A stretch of DNA of 26,306 nt from a virus. The position numbers were made by a program, and so were the translations under genes. This document shows positions 4,813 to 26,306 of the stretch, in pieces. Within the stretch, counting starts at the first letter, position 1; every line of letters starts with the position of its first letter. The DNA lies in IMG/VR virus record IMGVR_UViG_3300049914_000048, positions 1 to 26,306 of that record; one strand, written 5' to 3'. A model generated the notes under the pieces. The model was given only the letters and a program-made list of their open reading frames with translations. It made no database searches and was not told the origin of the DNA.

Positions 4813-5510
4813 ATTTTCTTAATCCCCCATTGCACCATTGTCTGATTTAAGATGTCGAGCTTGCTTGCTATTGGAATATTATACATGTGCATCATAAAGA
4901 CGGGATTTGGATATCCCTTATTCTGTAAGACGCTTCTCAAGGTCGTGAACTTGAGCCCATATTTCGAGATATTGCGCGAGCAGATATAGTCGTCGATCAG
5001 GTGCTCGCGTGCCATGCCGCCGTTGGTTTCCTGTGAAATCGTCTGGATGTTTGCCATTGCTTCCTCAAGCGTGAGATCGTCTGGCGGCTTCCATAATTCG
5101 ATGCATAAGTCTGATGCAACCGCAAACCAGTTGCAGGAGCCGATAAATCGGCCATCTCTCAGGAAAAAGCGGTCGGCCTTGAATCTATGCGTCGATTCAT
5201 CGCTGCCGTTATGCATCACCGTGTCTTTGGAAATATGATTTGTTACATCCATTAGGTCGGGATGAATGAGGCAGTCGCCGTCACAGAAAATATTCCAGTC
5301 ATTCGCGTGCTGCTGCGCGAGTTCGTAAATTTGCAGCTTCTCGAATGTCACAGGCCAATCAGGAAACTTACGCTCGGTGATGATAAAGAAATCGGCGCCG
5401 ATCTTCTCTGCATATTTGCGCATATACGGAAAGGTTAGCGCCGTGATCTCCGGCTCGTAGTCGTCGATATTGAGCGTGTAGAGCGTCTTCTTCAGAGGCT
5501 TATTCCACAT
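4809..5510 (-). CDS. Glycosyltransferase-like protein inside the tail module
   Basis: The 233-aa protein looks like a nucleotide-sugar-dependent glycosyltransferase of GT-A fold. An N-terminal strand-helix (YTLNIDDYEPEITALTFPYM) precedes KLQIYELAQQ and a WNIFCDGDCLIHPD segment with a DxD motif (Asp77-Gly-Asp79), the metal/nucleotide-sugar binding signature; a later EHLIDDYICSRN helix could hold the acceptor or base residues. No signal peptide or membrane segment is visible, so it should act in the cytoplasm. It has a strong ribosome binding site (AAGGAGGGGGCGCATG) and overlaps the chaperone gene by 4 nt, so it is co-expressed late with tail proteins. The substrate is unknown: a tail protein or a host glycan precursor are both possible. 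Family assignment is by motif only. Confidence 0.72.
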   Translation of the reverse strand: MWNKPLKKTLYTLNIDDYEPEITALTFPYMRKYAEKIGADFFIITERKFPDWPVTFEKLQIYELAQQHANDWNIFCDGDCLIHPDLMDVTNHISKDTVMHNGSDESTHRFKADRFFLRDGRFIGSCNWFAVASDLCIELWKPPDDLTLEEAMANIQTISQETNGGMAREHLIDDYICSRNISKYGLKFTTLRSVLQNKGYPNPVFMMHMYNIPIASKLDILNQTMVQWGIKKI

Positions 5511-5521
5511 GCGCCCCCTCC

Positions 5522-6274
5522 TTAGCTTCCGGCGAAGGAGAACGAGCCCATCTGGTTGTTTGCATCTGCCATTGCCTGAAAATCAAACTCAGGTATTGTC
5601 CAGTCTTCGAGTTTCGTCGCAAGCGAGAGCTTCGAGCTGATGCAACTGTTCAGCGTAATGGTCATGTTTTTCCCGCCATACTTGCCATTGATGACAACTT
5701 TAAATTTCGGCATCACGCCCATCAATTGATTATTGATGATGAAGTTCTGCCCCGGCAGCGCATTTGCCGTATAGAGATATGAGAGAAGAACTGCCGCGTT
5801 ATTGTCGCCGGCGTTGAAGGTATAGACGCCGTTGCTCGCGTTGCAGGCATAGACGCCGTTTCCCGTCGCTGTTGCGCCGCGCGTCATGCGCACGCCATTC
5901 GCGGCATACGTAACCCCCAGATCAACGGTAAACGTGCTGTTGTTCGCCACGGTCACAGAGTTTCCCGCGACGGTGCCCGTCTCAAGCTCCTTTGCCTTGA
6001 TCTCTCCGGTGAGCAGCGTTTCGCCGAACACCAGATTAAACGCTGCCGCTTCAAAGCGCGCAAATTTTGCCTTGCCCGTCGTCTTTCTCGCGCCTCTCGC
6101 TACCTCAACCGGGTCTTGATAAAGCCCGCGAAGCTCCTTCAGCGTTGAAGACAGATCAAGACTGACGTCCTGAAGTACGCCGAATGGCACTGGTGTCGGG
6201 ACGGTTATTGCCGCCCCGGTGAGATCAACCGTCGGGACTGCCCATAAACTTCCTGATCCAAAAATAAACTGCAT
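5522..6274 (-). CDS. Major tail tube protein
   Basis: The 250-aa, beta-rich protein occupies the tail tube position. The N-terminus (FGSGSLWAVPTVDLTG), the LQDVSLDLSSTLKELRG strand and the DPVEVARGARKTTGKAKFA segment, plus the C-terminal WTIPEFDFQAMAD strand, are typical of siphophage tube subunits that stack as hexameric rings. The middle part (about residues 95-165) is Thr/Asn/Gly-rich with repeated GNGVYAC/NGVYTF strands and may be an additional surface domain. A good ribosome binding site (AAAGGAGGAACGAACAATG) fixes the start. It precedes a glycosyltransferase gene, which makes this protein one candidate substrate, though nothing in the sequence proves it. Confidence 0.9.
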   Translation of the reverse strand: MQFIFGSGSLWAVPTVDLTGAAITVPTPVPFGVLQDVSLDLSSTLKELRGLYQDPVEVARGARKTTGKAKFARFEAAAFNLVFGETLLTGEIKAKELETGTVAGNSVTVANNSTFTVDLGVTYAANGVRMTRGATATGNGVYACNASNGVYTFNAGDNNAAVLLSYLYTANALPGQNFIINNQLMGVMPKFKVVINGKYGGKNMTITLNSCISSKLSLATKLEDWTIPEFDFQAMADANNQMGSFSFAGS

Positions 6275-6301
6275 TGTTCGTTCCTCCTTTACGAGAATTT
6301 C

Positions 6302-6496
6302 TTAAAAGAGTTTTTTCAGCTCTTCTTTTGATTCGTAAACATAGCCATAGTGGTCGGTGTCGCTGATGCCTGATTTATTGCGAAAGCGATCCTGAAACCA
6401 CGCCTCGATCTTGGTAAAGATTTCCGCCGCTGTATATGTTGCAGGCGGAGTCTCCTTCTCGTCCTGTATATCGTTTGCATTCTTCTTTATAACCAT
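6302..6496 (-). CDS. Small hypothetical tail-region protein
   Basis: A 64-aa protein beginning MVIKKNANDIQDE. I chose the ATG at 6496 because a GGAGGT ribosome binding site sits 8 nt upstream; a longer frame from 6553 would run into the preceding gene. It is highly charged, with a central helix (YTAAEIFTKIEAWFQDRF) and an aromatic YGYVYESKEELKKLF ending. No family recognised. Its place between tail terminator and tube genes suggests a minor tail or assembly role. Confidence 0.7.
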   Translation of the reverse strand: MVIKKNANDIQDEKETPPATYTAAEIFTKIEAWFQDRFRNKSGISDTDHYGYVYESKEELKKLF

Positions 6497-6942: not shown

Positions 6943-7412
6943 TTAAGCGCCCTCGCTATTGCCCGATCATATTCGGCGTAAATCTCCGGTATCAGCTCCT
7001 TCAATGAAGATCGCAAATACGATCTCTCTGGTATATGGGACCCGGGGTGATTAACGCTCTTCAAAAACATTTCCTTCCCCCCCATATAGAAGTGCAGCGC
7101 CAAAGCGTTGCGCGGCTTAATGACATGCGGTTTTGTCATGCCGCCGTATTCATGGATGTGCGCATATTCGACATTTGTTCCGGTCTTCGCCTCAATGCGT
7201 GCCTCTGATTCAGTTACCTCGCCATGAATGCTTGCCCTCAGATGATCGCTTCGGTTTCTCAGAACGGGACCGGAAAGCTTTTCCTTCACCGAGCGGAGCA
7301 GCAGGATGTTGAGCACTTTCGTGCTGGCAAGGAGTTCGGCTCGCAACTTTGGATTGAAGCCTTCGATTCTGGCGATTACTTCCCGGTCTCCGATGATTTC
7401 AGCCGTTATCAT
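6939..7412 (-). CDS. HK97 gp10-like head-tail joining protein
   Basis: This 157-aa protein shows the pattern of HK97 gp10 / Mu gpG-type tail completion proteins: GPVLRNRSDHLRASI followed by VEYAHIHEYGG, then PHVIKPRNALAL and a C-terminal HIPERSYLRSSL. Members form the neck or tail completion ring that links connector and tail. Length is normal. It overlaps the connector gene and the next gene by 4 nt each, so the three are translated in a coupled block. Confidence 0.92.
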   Translation of the reverse strand: MITAEIIGDREVIARIEGFNPKLRAELLASTKVLNILLLRSVKEKLSGPVLRNRSDHLRASIHGEVTESEARIEAKTGTNVEYAHIHEYGGMTKPHVIKPRNALALHFYMGGKEMFLKSVNHPGSHIPERSYLRSSLKELIPEIYAEYDRAIARALK

Positions 7413-8221
7413 ATCGGCACCACCCTTTGATATTGCCGCAGCAGAGACTTGAAATCGCCGGTAATGTCGGTTGATGTATAGGAGATCCTTTCCGGTCCCA
7501 TTCCATAGCCGGTCACGCCCACGCGCTCACGCTGCTTATATTTCAAAGCGATCAGCTCAATCGTTACCTGTGCGATCTCGAAAGGAATTACCGTATAGCC
7601 CGCCGTATATGCCATGGTAACGTTTTGGATACCCTTCGTGAAAAAAGCGTTTTTAAGATACAGCGCTGTCTCGTTGAAGCGATATCCTGGCGTCGGATCG
7701 GCAACAAAGGGAAGGATCGCCTCACCATCAACCGTGACGGCGCTTACTGCCGTCGCCGGATAATTGGAAAACATAAGAACCGAAGAGCCATTGCCGTCTC
7801 TTCTTTCCGTATAGCTCGCTGATGCAAAAATACGATTTAGGTGCGTCTGCAAGAATGAGCTGGCAGCAGTCACGAGCCGCTGAATCAGCGTCGGTGGCGC
7901 AGACATCATCTCCGGAAGATATGCTATCGCCTCAGCAATTGTGGTGAGGTCAAGGGCGTTCACAGCATAGACCGTGATTATCCATGCAGCGAAAGCGCCC
8001 GTTCCATTGAAGCTCGTAACATTAACGACCAGCGCACCGGTTGTAATATTATAACTCACGACAAGACCGGCCATCCAATAGGTTGCTGCGCCACCTACTG
8101 GTTTGGTTGCCGACAAGATCGTAACCGCCTGCCCAGGCAAGAAGCCAAGGCTGATCTGCGTTGTGAGAGATTGGTTGCCGCTCCCTATCGTGAGCGATGT
8201 CGATGACGTTCCGGTTATCAT
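7409..8221 (-). CDS. Head-tail connector (gp6-like) with N-terminal fibre-type domain
   Basis: The 270-aa protein has two parts. Residues about 100-270 are a gp6-like connector: TTIAEAIAYLPEMMS, an LIQRLVTAASSFLQTHLNR helix, YTERRDGNGSSVLMFSNYP, and a YTAGYTVIPFEIAQVTIELI helix. This is the ring that joins the portal to the tail. Residues 1-90 instead resemble a beta module familiar from tail fibres and virion proteins: TSSTSLTIGSGNQSLTTQ, LGFLPGQAVTI, VVSYNITTGALVV and AAWIITVY. Such modules are usually not part of connectors, so this looks like a domain fusion. Start: GGAAGGTGAAAAATG. A small hairpin precedes it at 8236-8254. Confidence 0.85.
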   Translation of the reverse strand: MITGTSSTSLTIGSGNQSLTTQISLGFLPGQAVTILSATKPVGGAATYWMAGLVVSYNITTGALVVNVTSFNGTGAFAAWIITVYAVNALDLTTIAEAIAYLPEMMSAPPTLIQRLVTAASSFLQTHLNRIFASASYTERRDGNGSSVLMFSNYPATAVSAVTVDGEAILPFVADPTPGYRFNETALYLKNAFFTKGIQNVTMAYTAGYTVIPFEIAQVTIELIALKYKQRERVGVTGYGMGPERISYTSTDITGDFKSLLRQYQRVVPI

Positions 8222-8235
8222 TTTTCACCTTCCGC

Positions 8236-8254
8236 CCCGGCGCTTATTGCCGGG
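8236..8254 (-). other. Hairpin in the leader of the connector gene
   Basis: A 6-bp perfect GC stem (CCCGGC / GCCGGG) with a 7-nt loop lies 14 nt before the connector start, just ahead of the ribosome binding site. There is no following U-tract, so it is not an intrinsic terminator. A local effect on RNA stability or translation is possible; it may also have no function. Confidence 0.4.
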
Positions 8255-8307
8255 AGCTCCCCATTGTATTCTTTTGAGCGCCGCCCTCCGTTGCTCTGGG
8301 GAGTTTT

Positions 8308-8511
8308 CTACTTCTTGCTCCTTTTCCCGCTGGGCGGCTCTGGGTCTTTTTTTTCAGAATCTTCGGGTATATATTCGATCAGCCTTGCCCCGTGGAACCT
8401 CACCAATACATCGCCAGCCTCATCAGGAACCGTCACCTCGCCGTTTTTGTCGGCCTGGTAGACAATCCCATCGTGGCTGCATGATTTGCCTGTCAATTTA
8501 ATTTTCTGCAT
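8308..8511 (-). CDS. Small conserved head-region protein
   Basis: A 67-aa acidic/basic protein with a short beta start (MQKIKLTGKSCSHDGIVYQ), a VTVPDEAGDVLVRFHGARLI segment and a charged disordered tail rich in Lys, Asp, Pro. The V-DEAGDVL-R-HGA pattern recalls small phage proteins encoded just after the capsid gene, with residues resembling a rubredoxin-like or decoration-type mini-domain; no firm family. The ribosome binding site AAGGAGAACAGATATG is strong. About 86 nt without coding separate it from the connector gene. Confidence 0.75.
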   Translation of the reverse strand: MQKIKLTGKSCSHDGIVYQADKNGEVTVPDEAGDVLVRFHGARLIEYIPEDSEKKDPEPPSGKRSKK

Positions 8512-12376: not shown

Positions 12377-13132
12377 TTAACCTCCTTCTAATTCCATAAC
12401 CACGGGCAGCACATCACAGGTGCAGTTTGGGTGCGCGGGCGGACAATCATCGCCGCTTGAAAAAGAATCCTCAAGAGCGATAACACCATCAGCCACATTA
12501 TCGTCACATTCGTCATCATCGTCATGCTCGCTGCCTAAAATCCATTCCTTGCCGTCCACAACGCCGCTTGCGCGATAGGCTTCCATGTTGCCCTGGATGT
12601 CCGCAAAGGCCGTCTCTGTGCGTGCGATCATGTCAGCGCGGTCTTCGGAGAATCCATGATTGTCAATGATCTCCTGCTTGAGCTTATCCGTGCTGTAGCC
12701 CTTGTCGATAGAATCCTTGATCGTGGATCTCAGCATGTCCCGCGTCGTGTCGGTGATCGCATATTCGCGGTTCGGGTTTTCAATCCAGTGCGGGATCTCT
12801 TTCGTGCCGATGTTTTTCATGCCCACCAGGTCAGCTGCACGCTCAGCGGCATAGGCACTCGCCCGCTCATTTAGGAATGATGTCATTCCGTCAGTCGCGT
12901 CAAAGCTGATCTGAGCCAGAGCGGCGCGAGTACCGTCCGCATATATTTTCTCAAGAGCTTCTTCCGTGGGGTTGATCAGAACGGACCAGCCCTTGAAATC
13001 GAGATCCTTCAATACCTTCTCAACAACCTCATCAGTCGTGAGGACATTGCTGGCGCTCTCGATACCCTTGAGCACCTGCTCGGCTGTGACTGCCGATTCG
13101 GTCTTGAATAGCTCTGTGAATTCTCCTTGCAA
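12377..13132 (-). CDS. Mu gpF / SPP1 gp7-like minor head protein
   Basis: This protein (251 aa from the TTG at 13132) has the Mu F / SPP1 gp7 head-morphogenesis signature: RADMIARTETAFADIQGNM, then a DDDDECDDN segment and a HPNCTC motif near the C-terminus (Cys/His-rich). These minor capsid proteins sit by the portal in the procapsid. No ATG is usable; TTG is preceded by a GGAGAGGG ribosome binding site. The same frame stays open upstream through a coding-like stretch (PIDRNRKSVKKERDK) up to a TAA at the edge of a ten-A run inside the portal gene end, so a portal fusion by -1 frameshift is possible (see findings). It ends 2 nt before the protease gene. Confidence 0.88.
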   Translation of the reverse strand: MQGEFTELFKTESAVTAEQVLKGIESASNVLTTDEVVEKVLKDLDFKGWSVLINPTEEALEKIYADGTRAALAQISFDATDGMTSFLNERASAYAAERAADLVGMKNIGTKEIPHWIENPNREYAITDTTRDMLRSTIKDSIDKGYSTDKLKQEIIDNHGFSEDRADMIARTETAFADIQGNMEAYRASGVVDGKEWILGSEHDDDDECDDNVADGVIALEDSFSSGDDCPPAHPNCTCDVLPVVMELEGG

Positions 13133-13170
13133 CTTATCCCTCTCCTTCTTGACCGATTTCCGGTTGCGGT

Positions 13171-14577
13171 CTATAGGATGTATCTTTTTTTTTTACCCGC
13201 ATCCCTGTAAACCTGCGCAACGGCATCGTCTCCGTTCCCCTTTTTCTTTGCAGGAAGTTTCTTTCCGCCGTCTTCATTATCACCGCCAGGAGCAGCATCG
13301 CTATTCGTCGGCTGCCCCATTGCAGGCGGCAGCGGCTTTACCGGTGCAGCGCCAACAAGGCCCTGTCTTGTGCGCACCTCGTCGGGACTGATGACATATT
13401 CCTGCAAATAGATTTTATCCACCTCCGCCTGGACGAGTGGGTCGATTACCCTGACGTCCTGCCATTTGAATTGCAGATCGCGGTAACCGAAATACTTCCA
13501 GATGATTTTGTTCCAGAAATTCTTTTCCCAAACCATAATAGGCTCAAGCCCTTCTTCCTGGGCGCGGTCTTTCTCGCTTTGTGCTTGCGCGCGGTTCATC
13601 TGCTTGACAAACGCGGTGGGTGGCAGAGAGAAGGCGAAGCAGATAATCCTTGCCAGCCATTCGTCATACTCGTCCTTGATCGCATTCTGTTTAATGTCAT
13701 AAGGCTCGATGCCGTGCGGAACAAACTTTGCCTTTCTGCGTTCACCCAAGTCGCCGGACATCAATGAATCAAACCAGAGCTGAAACTGCTTTATCTGGTC
13801 AGGATTCCAGTCCTCGGGAACGCCGAAAATCAGGTCGGGAAGATTGCCCTCTGTATAATACGAGAGTTGATGAATCTGCCTGCGCAGGGCGATATTGACG
13901 GTGATGATCACCTGCTCTACCGGGCTGAAGCCGTATGCCTTATTCGTCCTGATATTGCGCGGCATATATATGATCTCGTCAGCGCTGTAATCTACCGCAG
14001 GGACGCCCTTGATGTATTGCTGATAAGCAACTTCGGGAGGCATCGGCGTGCGGCCTTCTCCGTCGAGTTTGCGGGTGATCAATGCACCGTCCATGAGATC
14101 AAGCGAATAGAGTTTGCCACCTTTAGTCATGCGCGGATAAGCCGTCGGAGCATCAATCACCAAAAGGTCTTCGTGCAGCGCCCGGCGCCATGTTGCAAAG
14201 TCATGCTCACGATCAGGGAAGCGAAAAAGGTCTTCGACTTCCTGACAGCGCGGATCGTTGGCCGCCTGTTTTGCCGGGTCAATCGGGACGATGCTCCATT
14301 CCAGCTTCGATAACTGATCTTTTCGTGTTTCAATAGCGAGGCGCATAAGATCATAGCCGTCAGCAAGGCCGCGCAGCATGGCAAACCCGACGTCCGTATC
14401 TTGCCGCGGCACATAGACGAGATTGAATCCGACCGGATAGTCAAACTGCCTGCCTTCCATGCCCTCTTGAAAAACGGGCTGAAGCGGCTGCATGGGTCCG
14501 AACGGCACGACATCCGCGCCGGCGATAATGTAGGCGATGCCCGTCTTCAGTCTGTCTATGAAACCTTTCTCTGCCAT
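13171..14577 (-). CDS. Phage portal protein
   Basis: The 468-aa protein is the portal, the dodecameric DNA gate at one capsid vertex. Evidence: position after terminase and before the gpF-like gene; the DGYDLMRLAIETRKDQLSKL and WSIVPIDP segment; SADEIIYMPRNIRTNKAYGFSP; ALRRQIHQLSYYTEGN; a clip/stem region with EWLARIICFAFSLPP; and the following NRAQAQSEKDRAQEEGLEPI helix. The C-terminus is low-complexity (Pro/Gly/Asp/Lys) and ends in a Lys run encoded by ten As. The ATG at 14577 shares one base with the stop of the preceding gene (TAATG). A longer upstream reading would overlap that gene fully and is rejected. Confidence 0.93.
   Translation of the reverse strand: MAEKGFIDRLKTGIAYIIAGADVVPFGPMQPLQPVFQEGMEGRQFDYPVGFNLVYVPRQDTDVGFAMLRGLADGYDLMRLAIETRKDQLSKLEWSIVPIDPAKQAANDPRCQEVEDLFRFPDREHDFATWRRALHEDLLVIDAPTAYPRMTKGGKLYSLDLMDGALITRKLDGEGRTPMPPEVAYQQYIKGVPAVDYSADEIIYMPRNIRTNKAYGFSPVEQVIITVNIALRRQIHQLSYYTEGNLPDLIFGVPEDWNPDQIKQFQLWFDSLMSGDLGERRKAKFVPHGIEPYDIKQNAIKDEYDEWLARIICFAFSLPPTAFVKQMNRAQAQSEKDRAQEEGLEPIMVWEKNFWNKIIWKYFGYRDLQFKWQDVRVIDPLVQAEVDKIYLQEYVISPDEVRTRQGLVGAAPVKPLPPAMGQPTNSDAAPGGDNEDGGKKLPAKKKGNGDDAVAQVYRDAGKKKRYIL
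13186..13195 (-). repeat. Ten-A homopolymer at the portal/gpF junction
   Basis: A run of ten A (T on the plus strand) near the portal C-terminus is read as AAA AAA AAA A in the portal frame. It contains an A AAA AAA type slippery heptamer. A -1 slip here joins the portal frame to the gpF-like frame with no intervening stop. It could equally be the site of a sequencing length error. Confidence 0.8.
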
Positions 14578-14948
14578 TAACGCCCTCCACGCAACCACGA
14601 GACAAAGCATTTACTGCCGGCAGCAGGGCTGACAGTTATTCCATTTGCAAACCTGACGGGAGTTGATGATGTCCAGCTTGGCGAGAGATTCCCGCTTGCG
14701 GCCGTTGTATAAACTCCGGGGAGTTGGGTTCCTGATGCCGCTGTGCCGCTATCGTAGAGATCACATGCGCAGGCGGTCGCACCATTTCCCCGGCAGAAGA
14801 CGCCGATAAGACCGCCCGCCCCGACGACGGCGGTTTTGGTGGCGGTTATCGCTCCGCTGTTTTCTGCAACAGGCTCCGCCGCAATCGCGGCGCTTGTCAT
14901 TGCGAGCAATGCTGCGATAAGAAATATGCAAAGAGTTTTCTTGATCAT
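14577..14948 (-). CDS. Exported small protein with virion-decoration-like beta fold
   Basis: The 123-aa protein starts with a clear Sec signal peptide: MIKKTLC, hydrophobic core IFLIAALLAMTSAAIA, and an Ala-x-Ala type site before EPVAENSG. The mature part has the pattern AVVGAGGLIGVF, TACACDLYDSGTAASG, and a VRFANGITVSPAAGSKCF ending. This resembles small beta-sandwich proteins common in phage structural regions, where the version without signal peptide is a putative decoration or tail protein. Several Cys (about 52, 60, 62, 114) could form disulphides outside the cytoplasm. The ATG overlaps the stop of the Wzy_C-like gene by 4 nt; ribosome binding site AAAGGGGGAATTATG. Role unknown. Confidence 0.78.
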   Translation of the reverse strand: MIKKTLCIFLIAALLAMTSAAIAAEPVAENSGAITATKTAVVGAGGLIGVFCRGNGATACACDLYDSGTAASGTQLPGVYTTAASGNLSPSWTSSTPVRFANGITVSPAAGSKCFVSWLRGGR

Positions 14949-22748: not shown

Positions 22749-23099
22749 ATGCCAGAATTTAAGATCGAATTTACAGTTGTCAGGAAAGGCGCCAGGGCAG
22801 AGAGAATCAAAAACGAAATAGAGGACGTCCTTGGACGTGCAATCAGCATCAGGAAGGTCAATGCGAATCCGGGCAGATCGGAGCGCCTTGCTGAAGCCGA
22901 GGCGAAGATCGAAGATGCGAAATCAATCATTACAGATTTACAGCAGGAAATCCAAGACTGGTATGATAATCTGCCAGAGGGATTTCAGACTGGCGACAAA
23001 GGAGATCGCCTTCAGGAATGCGCCGACAGCCTGCAATCGCTGATCGACGACCTTGAAAACGTAGACTTCGGAAGCGTTGAGTTTCCGGGCATGTATTAG
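22749..23099 (+). CDS. Conserved coiled-coil early protein
   Basis: The 116-aa protein begins MPEFKIEFTVVRKGARAERI; its second half has heptads RLAEAEAKIEDAKSIITDLQ, WYDNLPEGFQTGDKGDRLQ, and LQSLIDDLENVDFGSVEFPG. The WYDNLPEGFQ and SVEFPGM pattern is one I recognise from conserved proteins of unknown function in phage and plasmid early regions. AGAAAGGAGGT precedes the ATG by 8 nt. It ends 13 nt before the Toprim-DUF932 gene, so the two are probably made together. Confidence 0.8.
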   Translation: MPEFKIEFTVVRKGARAERIKNEIEDVLGRAISIRKVNANPGRSERLAEAEAKIEDAKSIITDLQQEIQDWYDNLPEGFQTGDKGDRLQECADSLQSLIDDLENVDFGSVEFPGMY

Positions 23100-23112
23100 A
23101 AAGGAGGCCACC

Positions 23113-24696
23113 ATGCCAAAGATTTGTTACGTCCCACGCAATTTCGATAAAATAGGCACGCGTCTGACCACACTCGCCGAACAGATCATCAATGAATATT
23201 CAAAGCAGGGATTCGATCTGACGCTTCGTCAGTTGTATTATCAATTCGTCGCCCGTGATCTTCTTCCAGACAAATGGGCGGACAAAACCACCGGCAGCAA
23301 AAATAATCAGAGAAGCTACAGCAACCTCGGGAGTTTGATCAACAATGCAAGGCTCGCGGGGCTGATTGACTGGTATGCGATTGTTGATCGCACGCGGGGT
23401 CTCGTCAAAAATTCACACTGGGACAACCCTGCTGAAATCGTAGATCAATGCGCTCAGAGCTATCAGATCGACAAATGGGCGGAGCAGGAAACCCGCGTTG
23501 AGTTATGGATTGAAAAGGATGCATTGGCGGGCATTGTTGATAGTGTCTGCCGATCTCTCGACATTCCATATTTTTCATGCAGAGGTTATACCTCTCAGAG
23601 CGAAATGTGGATAGGGGCAATGCGACTTAGAAGGCAGATCAAGAATGGGCAAGGTGTCATCGTCCTGCATTTAGGTGACCATGACCCATCCGGCATAGAT
23701 ATGACGCGCGACATCACGGACAGGATATCGCTATTCACTGCCGGCAGCCATCACGAATTAGTTGTCGAGAATGGCGGAGATCAATCTTTTGACATTGGCG
23801 AGGTCGCCCACGACCAACTCGGCGAGCGCCTCGGAATCCCCCGCAAGTATTATGACAGAATGCGCGAGGAGACCCCAAATCTTCTGGCGGTAAATGTCAA
23901 CACGTGGCTCAAGCAACAACCAGAGCGCAGACCTGTCAGGACGCTCGACAATCGTGTCCGCGCCTTTCTGAGCGACAAGTATCGGCCGCTCGACAATTTT
24001 CTCGTGGCGAGCGCAGCGTTGCCCATCCTGCATGAGCAGGGGGCGAACATTGAGATCATATCCTCAGAAATGACAGAACGGCGCCTGTATCTGCAAGCGA
24101 TCACGCACAAGCATCAAGGTGAAGTCAGAAAAGGCGATGTCGTCAAAGCGGGATTGGTGATCTCCAATTCAGAGATCGGGCTGGGCGCTGTCCGCGTTGA
24201 GACATTGCTTTATCGGCTCGTCTGTCTGAACGGCATGATCACAAGCGAAGGCATCAGACGCCATCATGTTGGCAAACGCCTTGGAGGAGACGAGGAGATC
24301 GCGCTTTCATATTACGAGACCGAAACAATTGAAGCCGATAATAAGGCATTTCTTCTGAAGATCAGAGATACCGTGAAGCATCATCTTGAAGGAATCGACT
24401 TCAACGCCCACCTTGACCGCATGAAAGCAGCAGCAGAGCAAAGGCTGATGATCGCAAAGGTGGATGACATGATCGAAGAGGTGACAGCACGGTTCTCTCT
24501 CTCGAAGACAGAGGGCGGCGGCATTCTTGAAAATCTTATCAAGGGCGGCGACGCCACACTTTGGGGATTAGCGAACGCGGTAACGGCAATGGCGAATGAT
24601 ACAGCCGACTATGATCGCGTAATTGAACTGGAGCGGATTGGCGGCAGGATCATTGATCTGACGCCGAGCGAGTTCAAGTATATTCAGGCAGCGTAA
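23113..24696 (+). CDS. Fused Topo VI A/Toprim-like and DUF932 protein
   Basis: The 527-aa protein (ATG 23113, AAAGGAGGCCACC ribosome binding site) joins parts of two phage proteins. Residues 1-210 resemble a Topo VI A/Spo11-like Toprim protein: LTLRQLYYQFVARDL with Tyr42/43 in the place of the nucleophile, LIDWYAIVDRTRG, WIEKDALAG with Glu134, SCRGYTSQSEMW, and HLGDHDPSGIDM with Asp189/Asp191. The usual end of that family is missing. From about residue 214 a DUF932-type protein follows: EVAHDQLGERLGIPRKYYDR, VRTLDNRVRAFLSDKYRPLD (275-294), GLVISNSEIGLGAVRVETLL, then a helical tail. DUF932 normally has an extra N-terminal part too. Function unknown; DNA cleavage or strand processing is plausible. 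Confidence 0.85.
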   Translation: MPKICYVPRNFDKIGTRLTTLAEQIINEYSKQGFDLTLRQLYYQFVARDLLPDKWADKTTGSKNNQRSYSNLGSLINNARLAGLIDWYAIVDRTRGLVKNSHWDNPAEIVDQCAQSYQIDKWAEQETRVELWIEKDALAGIVDSVCRSLDIPYFSCRGYTSQSEMWIGAMRLRRQIKNGQGVIVLHLGDHDPSGIDMTRDITDRISLFTAGSHHELVVENGGDQSFDIGEVAHDQLGERLGIPRKYYDRMREETPNLLAVNVNTWLKQQPERRPVRTLDNRVRAFLSDKYRPLDNFLVASAALPILHEQGANIEIISSEMTERRLYLQAITHKHQGEVRKGDVVKAGLVISNSEIGLGAVRVETLLYRLVCLNGMITSEGIRRHHVGKRLGGDEEIALSYYETETIEADNKAFLLKIRDTVKHHLEGIDFNAHLDRMKAAAEQRLMIAKVDDMIEEVTARFSLSKTEGGGILENLIKGGDATLWGLANAVTAMANDTADYDRVIELERIGGRIIDLTPSEFKYIQAA

Positions 24697-24820: not shown

Positions 24821-25258
24821 ATGAAGCATACACCAATACCATGGATTTTTTATAAGAACAAGTTGCGCCCCAAAATTAGCGATGTTGTGATTATTGAGAT
24901 ACAAGATCAAAAGGGGAAGGCTATTATTAAATGGCCTGGATTTGAAGGAGTGGAAAATCGGGATGCTAACGCTCGTTTCATCATCGCCGCCTGCAATAAC
25001 TTTGAGGTGCTAATTCAATCATGCAGGGAGGCGTTTTGGCAGAGTCATGATCCTGAAGTTGAGCGGATGTTACGAGAAGCAGTCTATAAGGTGGAGGCCG
25101 CTCTGCTCGGCATCATTTACAATGGGCTACAAGAGACCGCACACGGTGGGGGGATACCACTATTCACTGATCTGGAAACAAGAGCCACGTTCGTCCTGCG
25201 CAGCGGAGAAACACTCCCTGAAGCACTTGCAAGAAAGAGGGCGGAGTTTAAGAAATAA
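24821..25258 (+). CDS. Small hypothetical early protein
   Basis: The 145-aa protein has an AAAGGAGGTAAG site immediately before its ATG. Residues 1-45 form a beta region (PIPWIFYKNKLRPKI, VVIIEIQDQKGKAIIKW), followed by DANARFIIAACNNFEVLIQS, a pattern common in small phage early proteins, and a helical middle (VERMLREAVYKVEAAL). The last part (FTDLETRATFVLRSGETL) may be another short domain. Function unknown. Confidence 0.7.
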   Translation: MKHTPIPWIFYKNKLRPKISDVVIIEIQDQKGKAIIKWPGFEGVENRDANARFIIAACNNFEVLIQSCREAFWQSHDPEVERMLREAVYKVEAALLGIIYNGLQETAHGGGIPLFTDLETRATFVLRSGETLPEALARKRAEFKK

Positions 25259-25510: not shown

Positions 25511-26306
25511 ATGACAGAAAAAAAAGGAAAGCAATTAGATTATCATCCCGCGCTGATCGCCGCGCAGGGCACGGATGTGAATCTCGGCGACTATGCGATT
25601 TCAACAGATAGCGTCGTCAAGCAGATCGGGCAGATTCAGGAATTGATGAAACGCGTCATGAAGGAGGGCGAGCATTACGGAACAATTCCTGGCACAGAGC
25701 GTAAGTGCGATCTCTGCAACGGCACGGGCAAGGGCGAGGATCACAAAAATTGCCTCGCTTGCGGAGGATCGGGAAAGCTCAAGAAGCCATCCCTATTCAA
25801 GCCGGGGGCTGAAAAGTTGGGCTTCACGTTCAGACTACGCCCCGAGTTCGATCTTGATGTTATTAACCTCGGCGACGGCCATCGGGAGTATCGCTTTGTA
25901 TGTAGATTGATCCATATTCCTACCGGCGCAAATGTCGGCGAGGGCGTCGGGATATGCTCAACCATGGAAGGGAAATATCGCTACCGCTGGGACAATACCG
26001 AGAAGGAAGTCCCAAAAGAATACTGGGACAATGGCGACAAAACATTGCTCGGCGGGCGCTATATGCAACCGCGGAAAGCATGGATGAAGGAAGATGGACA
26101 ATCGAAACAAAAATGGTTCATCTTTCAGCGCGTCGAACACGACAATCCCGCAGACTATTATAATACCTGCGAAAAGATCGGCAAAAAGCGCGCCCACGTT
26201 GATGCGATTCTGACGGCAACCGCAGCAAGCGACATTTTTAGTCAGGATTTGGAAGAAGACGAGGCGGCGGCAAGACTCGCAGCGGAGAGAGCAGCAGAAA
26301 CAGAAG
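25511..26306 (+). CDS. Conserved phage protein with inserted DnaJ-type zinc motif, partial
   Basis: From ATG 25511 the frame is open for 265 codons and continues past the window. It has the pattern MKRVMKEGEHYGTIPGT, KPSLFKPGAEKLGFTF, YRFVCRLIHIPTGANVGEGV, CSTMEGKYRYRW and KKRAHVDAILTATAASDIFS, which I recognise from conserved phage early proteins of unknown function. Between the TIPGT and KPSLFKPG blocks lie two CxxCxGxG motifs (CDLCNGTG 66-73, CLACGGSG 81-88), as in DnaJ zinc domains. The GGAGG site partly overlaps the end of the 42-aa gene. The C-terminal part seen is Ala/Glu-rich. Confidence 0.75.
   Translation, partial: MTEKKGKQLDYHPALIAAQGTDVNLGDYAISTDSVVKQIGQIQELMKRVMKEGEHYGTIPGTERKCDLCNGTGKGEDHKNCLACGGSGKLKKPSLFKPGAEKLGFTFRLRPEFDLDVINLGDGHREYRFVCRLIHIPTGANVGEGVGICSTMEGKYRYRWDNTEKEVPKEYWDNGDKTLLGGRYMQPRKAWMKEDGQSKQKWFIFQRVEHDNPADYYNTCEKIGKKRAHVDAILTATAASDIFSQDLEEDEAAARLAAERAAETE

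Follow-up and report, generated by a model that had tools for sequence, protein, structure and literature searches.

A putative in-frame join of a Mini-A gene and a DUF932 gene in a phage contig

Mobile elements encode type IIB topoisomerase-like proteins called Mini-A, which are described as truncated Topo VI A relatives (PMC7614492, PMC8185306), and a review names Pseudomonas phage NP1 as an example (PMC7614492). Among PHROG profiles, the family corresponds to phrog_6247, 'DNA topoisomerase'. DUF932 proteins, which correspond to phrog_1362, are encoded in other contigs beside genes for RecT, Sak4, SbcD, an exonuclease and NinB. In this study, we analysed a 26.3-kb virus record (the window, which is the whole stretch of DNA examined), whose minus strand carries the structural genes (terminase, portal and tail), with an early operon beginning on the plus strand at about 22.4 kb. 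Based on the company that DUF932 relatives keep elsewhere, we regard this operon as recombination-related. Profile matches indicate that one of its ORFs, encoding 527 amino acids (23113..24696, plus strand), is made of two unrelated proteins joined in frame, the N-terminal two-thirds of a Mini-A protein and most of a DUF932 protein.

The fused ORF and what each partner has lost

The fused ORF begins with an ATG at 23113, and its stop codon ends at 24696. A strong Shine-Dalgarno sequence, AAAGGAGG, was read directly at 23100..23107 (plus strand) and ends 5 bases before the ATG. On the same strand, the ORF is preceded by a small phrog_4068-like gene of the same operon (22749..23099, by profile match), relatives of which sit upstream of Mini-A in L013, L094 and L231. 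It is followed by a gene without an assigned function (24821..25258), and by a phrog_10048 gene (25511..26305, by profile match) that runs off the contig and has relatives close to Mini-A (L027) and to DUF932 (L146). Models of defence systems gave no match.

The profile phrog_6247 covers residues 3-210 (profile 3-199 of 303; E 6e-73 for this half), and phrog_1362 covers residues 210-517 (profile 57-386 of 391; E 4.5e-58). Pfam DUF932 (PF06067) covers residues 287-493 with 39.7 bits against a gathering cut-off of 23. These matches bear out the domain identities given in an earlier sequence-only reading, namely a Topo VI A/Toprim-type protein followed by DUF932. The NP1 phage matches residues 8-209 at 45.5% identity; in pairwise alignments, the Mini-A protein of L335 is 57% identical over residues 1-219, and the closest DUF932 relative, that of L096, is 57% identical over residues 206-526. 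Since the L335 and L096 alignments overlap at residues 206-219, the join lies within this zone (23728..23769, plus strand). Together, profile limits and pairwise alignments place it best at about residue 210, nt ~23737-23751, in agreement with the interval 23735-23757 proposed by the earlier reading. The only in-frame starts close to the join are ATG 23701 and ATG 23860, and neither is suitable for producing a separate DUF932 protein from an internal start.

The Mini-A part (residues 1-210, 23113..23742, plus strand) shares with its family the tyrosine motif, the Toprim Glu and the DxD. The 5Y-CAP-like tyrosine motif, TLRQLYYQ, has R39, Q40, Y42, Y43 and Q44 conserved, and E134 (IEKDAL) as well as D189 and D191 (GDHDPSG) are also conserved. 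When strongly conserved columns were defined as those with >=90% conservation among 145 relatives, 48 of the 50 preceding the break were found to be retained, and none of the 23 beyond it was present. Intact Mini-A proteins extend ~95 residues past this point, and the C-terminal third of the family (fourth Toprim strand, PPPNPAK, DSR, SWELDAL and end helices) is missing from the window protein, which thus has neither a complete Toprim fold nor the PPPNPAK/DSR/SWELDAL block. In the predicted structure of the intact L335 protein (pLDDT 94.4), the Toprim strands are residues 127-133, 152-155, 181-187 and 216-222. The window protein leaves the family at ~210, so the strand at 216-222 is gone, and the break is predicted to cut through the Toprim fold and to remove its fourth strand.

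The DUF932 part (residues 211-527, 23743..24693, plus strand; phrog_1362 and Pfam DUF932) resembles its family in 62 of 67 conserved columns. However, the N-terminal conserved columns, within the first ~45-57 residues of phrog_1362, are absent, and where the family starts with an LAxEIxRQxxxKKDF region the window protein has Mini-A instead. Thus, each partner has indeed lost one terminus, as had been claimed. The lost Mini-A and DUF932 pieces were also sought in the rest of the window, and neither left a trace there (best E values 0.63 and 2.5, compared with 203 and 159 matches in the ORFs of relatives).

In a subgroup of Mini-A proteins (L028, L032, L183, L198, L208 and others), an insertion of ~25-60 residues follows the DxD helix and precedes the fourth Toprim strand, at the very position of the break in the window protein. 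A set of Mini-A proteins that had seemed to form a family ending at this position proved to have only an insertion, with the C-terminal block resuming after it. Among the Mini-A proteins apparently ending there, the one exception away from a contig edge, L185 (4872-5711), looks frameshifted, its C-terminal block being seemingly out of frame, probably because of a frameshift or a sequencing error.

Predicted function of the fused protein

The Spo11-like label previously given to the first half holds for the intact relatives of the Mini-A part. When the predicted structure of intact L335 was compared with the PDB, Topo VI A chains of M. mazei were the best matches (9o8p_A, E 1.7e-4, probability 1.00), but the global TM-score was only 0.33, so the model points to fold kinship between intact Mini-A and Topo VI A rather than close similarity. 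This likeness belongs to the predicted fold of the intact relative and not to the fused protein, which differs from Topo VI A and Spo11 by its incomplete Toprim domain. Neither Pfam TP6A_N nor TOP6A-Spo11_Toprim matched the window protein (each was weakly matched in 2 of 60 Mini-A relatives), and PDB fold searches gave nothing significant either for the model of the fused protein or for its DUF932 half.

Although the tyrosine, the Toprim Glu and the DxD are retained, the incomplete Toprim fold makes activity of the Mini-A part unlikely; judging from the conserved columns and the predicted structures, the fused product probably lacks the DNA cutting expected of an intact Mini-A. The DUF932 part may still fold, and its translation may begin at the Mini-A start site. 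When the fusion was modelled, confidence fell below 50 at residues 210-216 and 220-223, and a two-residue bridge at 218-219, also of low confidence, sits where the fourth Toprim strand should be. This model is weak evidence, since its Mini-A half was built on few sequences. It seems quite improbable that the Spo11-like module and DUF932 form a nuclease directed to the recombination machinery of the phage or governed by it, with the start of the DUF932 part, HHELVVE, replacing the last Toprim strand.

Occurrence and origin of the join

Queries made from the whole protein, from either half alone, from a 72-residue region around the join and from alignments of the families were run against IMG/VR, GTDB genomes (one scan), phages and plasmids, and no second fusion was among the matches listed (best 80 loci per scan). 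The window contains the sole ORF with both domains among the 174 distinct Mini-A and 159 distinct DUF932 ORFs listed (514 loci; the Mini-A count is likewise that among the matches listed). The scan ranked by the full fused protein gave only DUF932-half matches among those listed, and of the matching records, 304 from phages and 63 from plasmids, not one reached >=80% coverage of the fused protein. One full-span match, in L343, proved to be two separate genes. Relatives found by terminase were at most 38% identical, and neither gene was present in their DNA that was compared. The joined form therefore appears to be unique within the collections searched.

Separate Mini-A and DUF932 genes lie on the same strand within a few kb of each other in about eleven other contigs (L018/L343, L025, L058, L080, L087, L088, L126, L147, L225, L226 and L364), and this recurrent adjacency suggests a shared pathway. 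In L087, Mini-A (5494-6387) is followed by DUF932 (7121-8317), so that Mini-A is 0.7 kb upstream, in the order seen in the fusion. An ancestor of the fused ORF may have carried an intact Mini-A gene and then an intact DUF932 gene on the same strand of an early recombination/replication operon. A deletion, arising in the phage itself or in assembly, would have taken the last ~95 Mini-A codons, the spacer and the first ~45-57 DUF932 codons, at least ~0.45 kb in all, or about 1.2 kb with the spacing of L087. As no close phage relative with the undeleted arrangement was found and the nearest halves are ~57-60% identical, we infer both this ancestor and the exact breakpoint.

Taking biological deletion and assembly join together, it is very likely that the fused ORF arose recently, in a single in-frame joining event. 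Everything that was retained is well conserved, without signs of long decay, which argues that the event is either recent or not real DNA. Furthermore, the join was seen in none of the relatives listed and cuts through the fold of an enzyme, so a single deletion event or a mistake in assembly is most likely, not a new kind of enzyme. As counter-points, an in-frame and fully open ORF is equally expected of a selected fusion, and HHELVVE might stand in for the missing strand.

The sequence by itself does not separate a deletion in the phage from an assembly join. The former, which would leave a natural fused gene with a crippled Mini-A part and a perhaps working DUF932 part, is the leading explanation, with a likelihood approaching even. 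GC content and codon usage are uniform across the join (codon usage of 0.12 for the DUF932 half and 0.091 for the next long gene, and between -0.041 and 0.14 for the genes left of the join), Mini-A and DUF932 are known same-strand neighbours, with Mini-A upstream in L087, and the ORF is open, in frame and provided with a strong ribosome-binding site; against these stands the fact that the record is a single contig with no second copy. Somewhat less probable, but a serious candidate, is that both genes are intact in the actual phage and that the assembler skipped the intervening sequence or merged two strains, given that a unique join across a folded domain, flanked by two well-conserved remnants, has the look of intact genes falsely joined. 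Such a chimera is less easily reconciled with the unchanged composition at the join, nor was a repeat of assembler length seen there, although the lost parts lie outside this repeat check. The constant GC content and codon usage disfavour a join of two unrelated genomes, but a skipped stretch or a mixture of strains is still compatible with them. That the ORF encodes a natural, selected two-domain enzyme coupling a Spo11-like cleavage module to DUF932, as the sequence-only reading had considered, is unlikely. In its favour, the catalytic residues (Y42/Y43, E134, D189 and D191) are retained, and other phages have both families amid genes for recombination or replication. Against it, the removed parts include the fourth Toprim strand and 23 near-invariant residues, model confidence is low at the join, and no homologue with the join is among the matches listed. 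Moreover, the halves are separate genes in every homologue found, and nearly all of these possess the ends missing here, which is the kind of outcome that the sequence-only reading had itself named as refuting.

One copy of an 18-nt near-repeat (16/18 matching), at 23723-23740, falls exactly on the join's Mini-A side, and the other, at 25152-25169, within the gene that follows. A partner as good was seen for none of 718 18-mers sampled from the region, but this near-repeat leaves the join unexplained since its second copy is outside DUF932.

Should the fusion be both real and functional, it would, as far as searched here, directly connect a phage Mini-A with DUF932 for the first time, and would suggest that the two act together in phage recombination. 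As by-products, this analysis identifies Mini-A and DUF932 genes as recurrent same-strand neighbours, and indicates that a fused ORF known from just one metagenomic contig calls for a read-level check before a new enzyme is claimed. Elsewhere in the window, the portal-type profile phrog_2662 is split over two adjacent minus-strand genes, 13171-14610 (profile 28-441) and 12377-13132 (profile 582-710), and by these matches the region 12377-14610 appears to be a split portal/head-morphogenesis pair.
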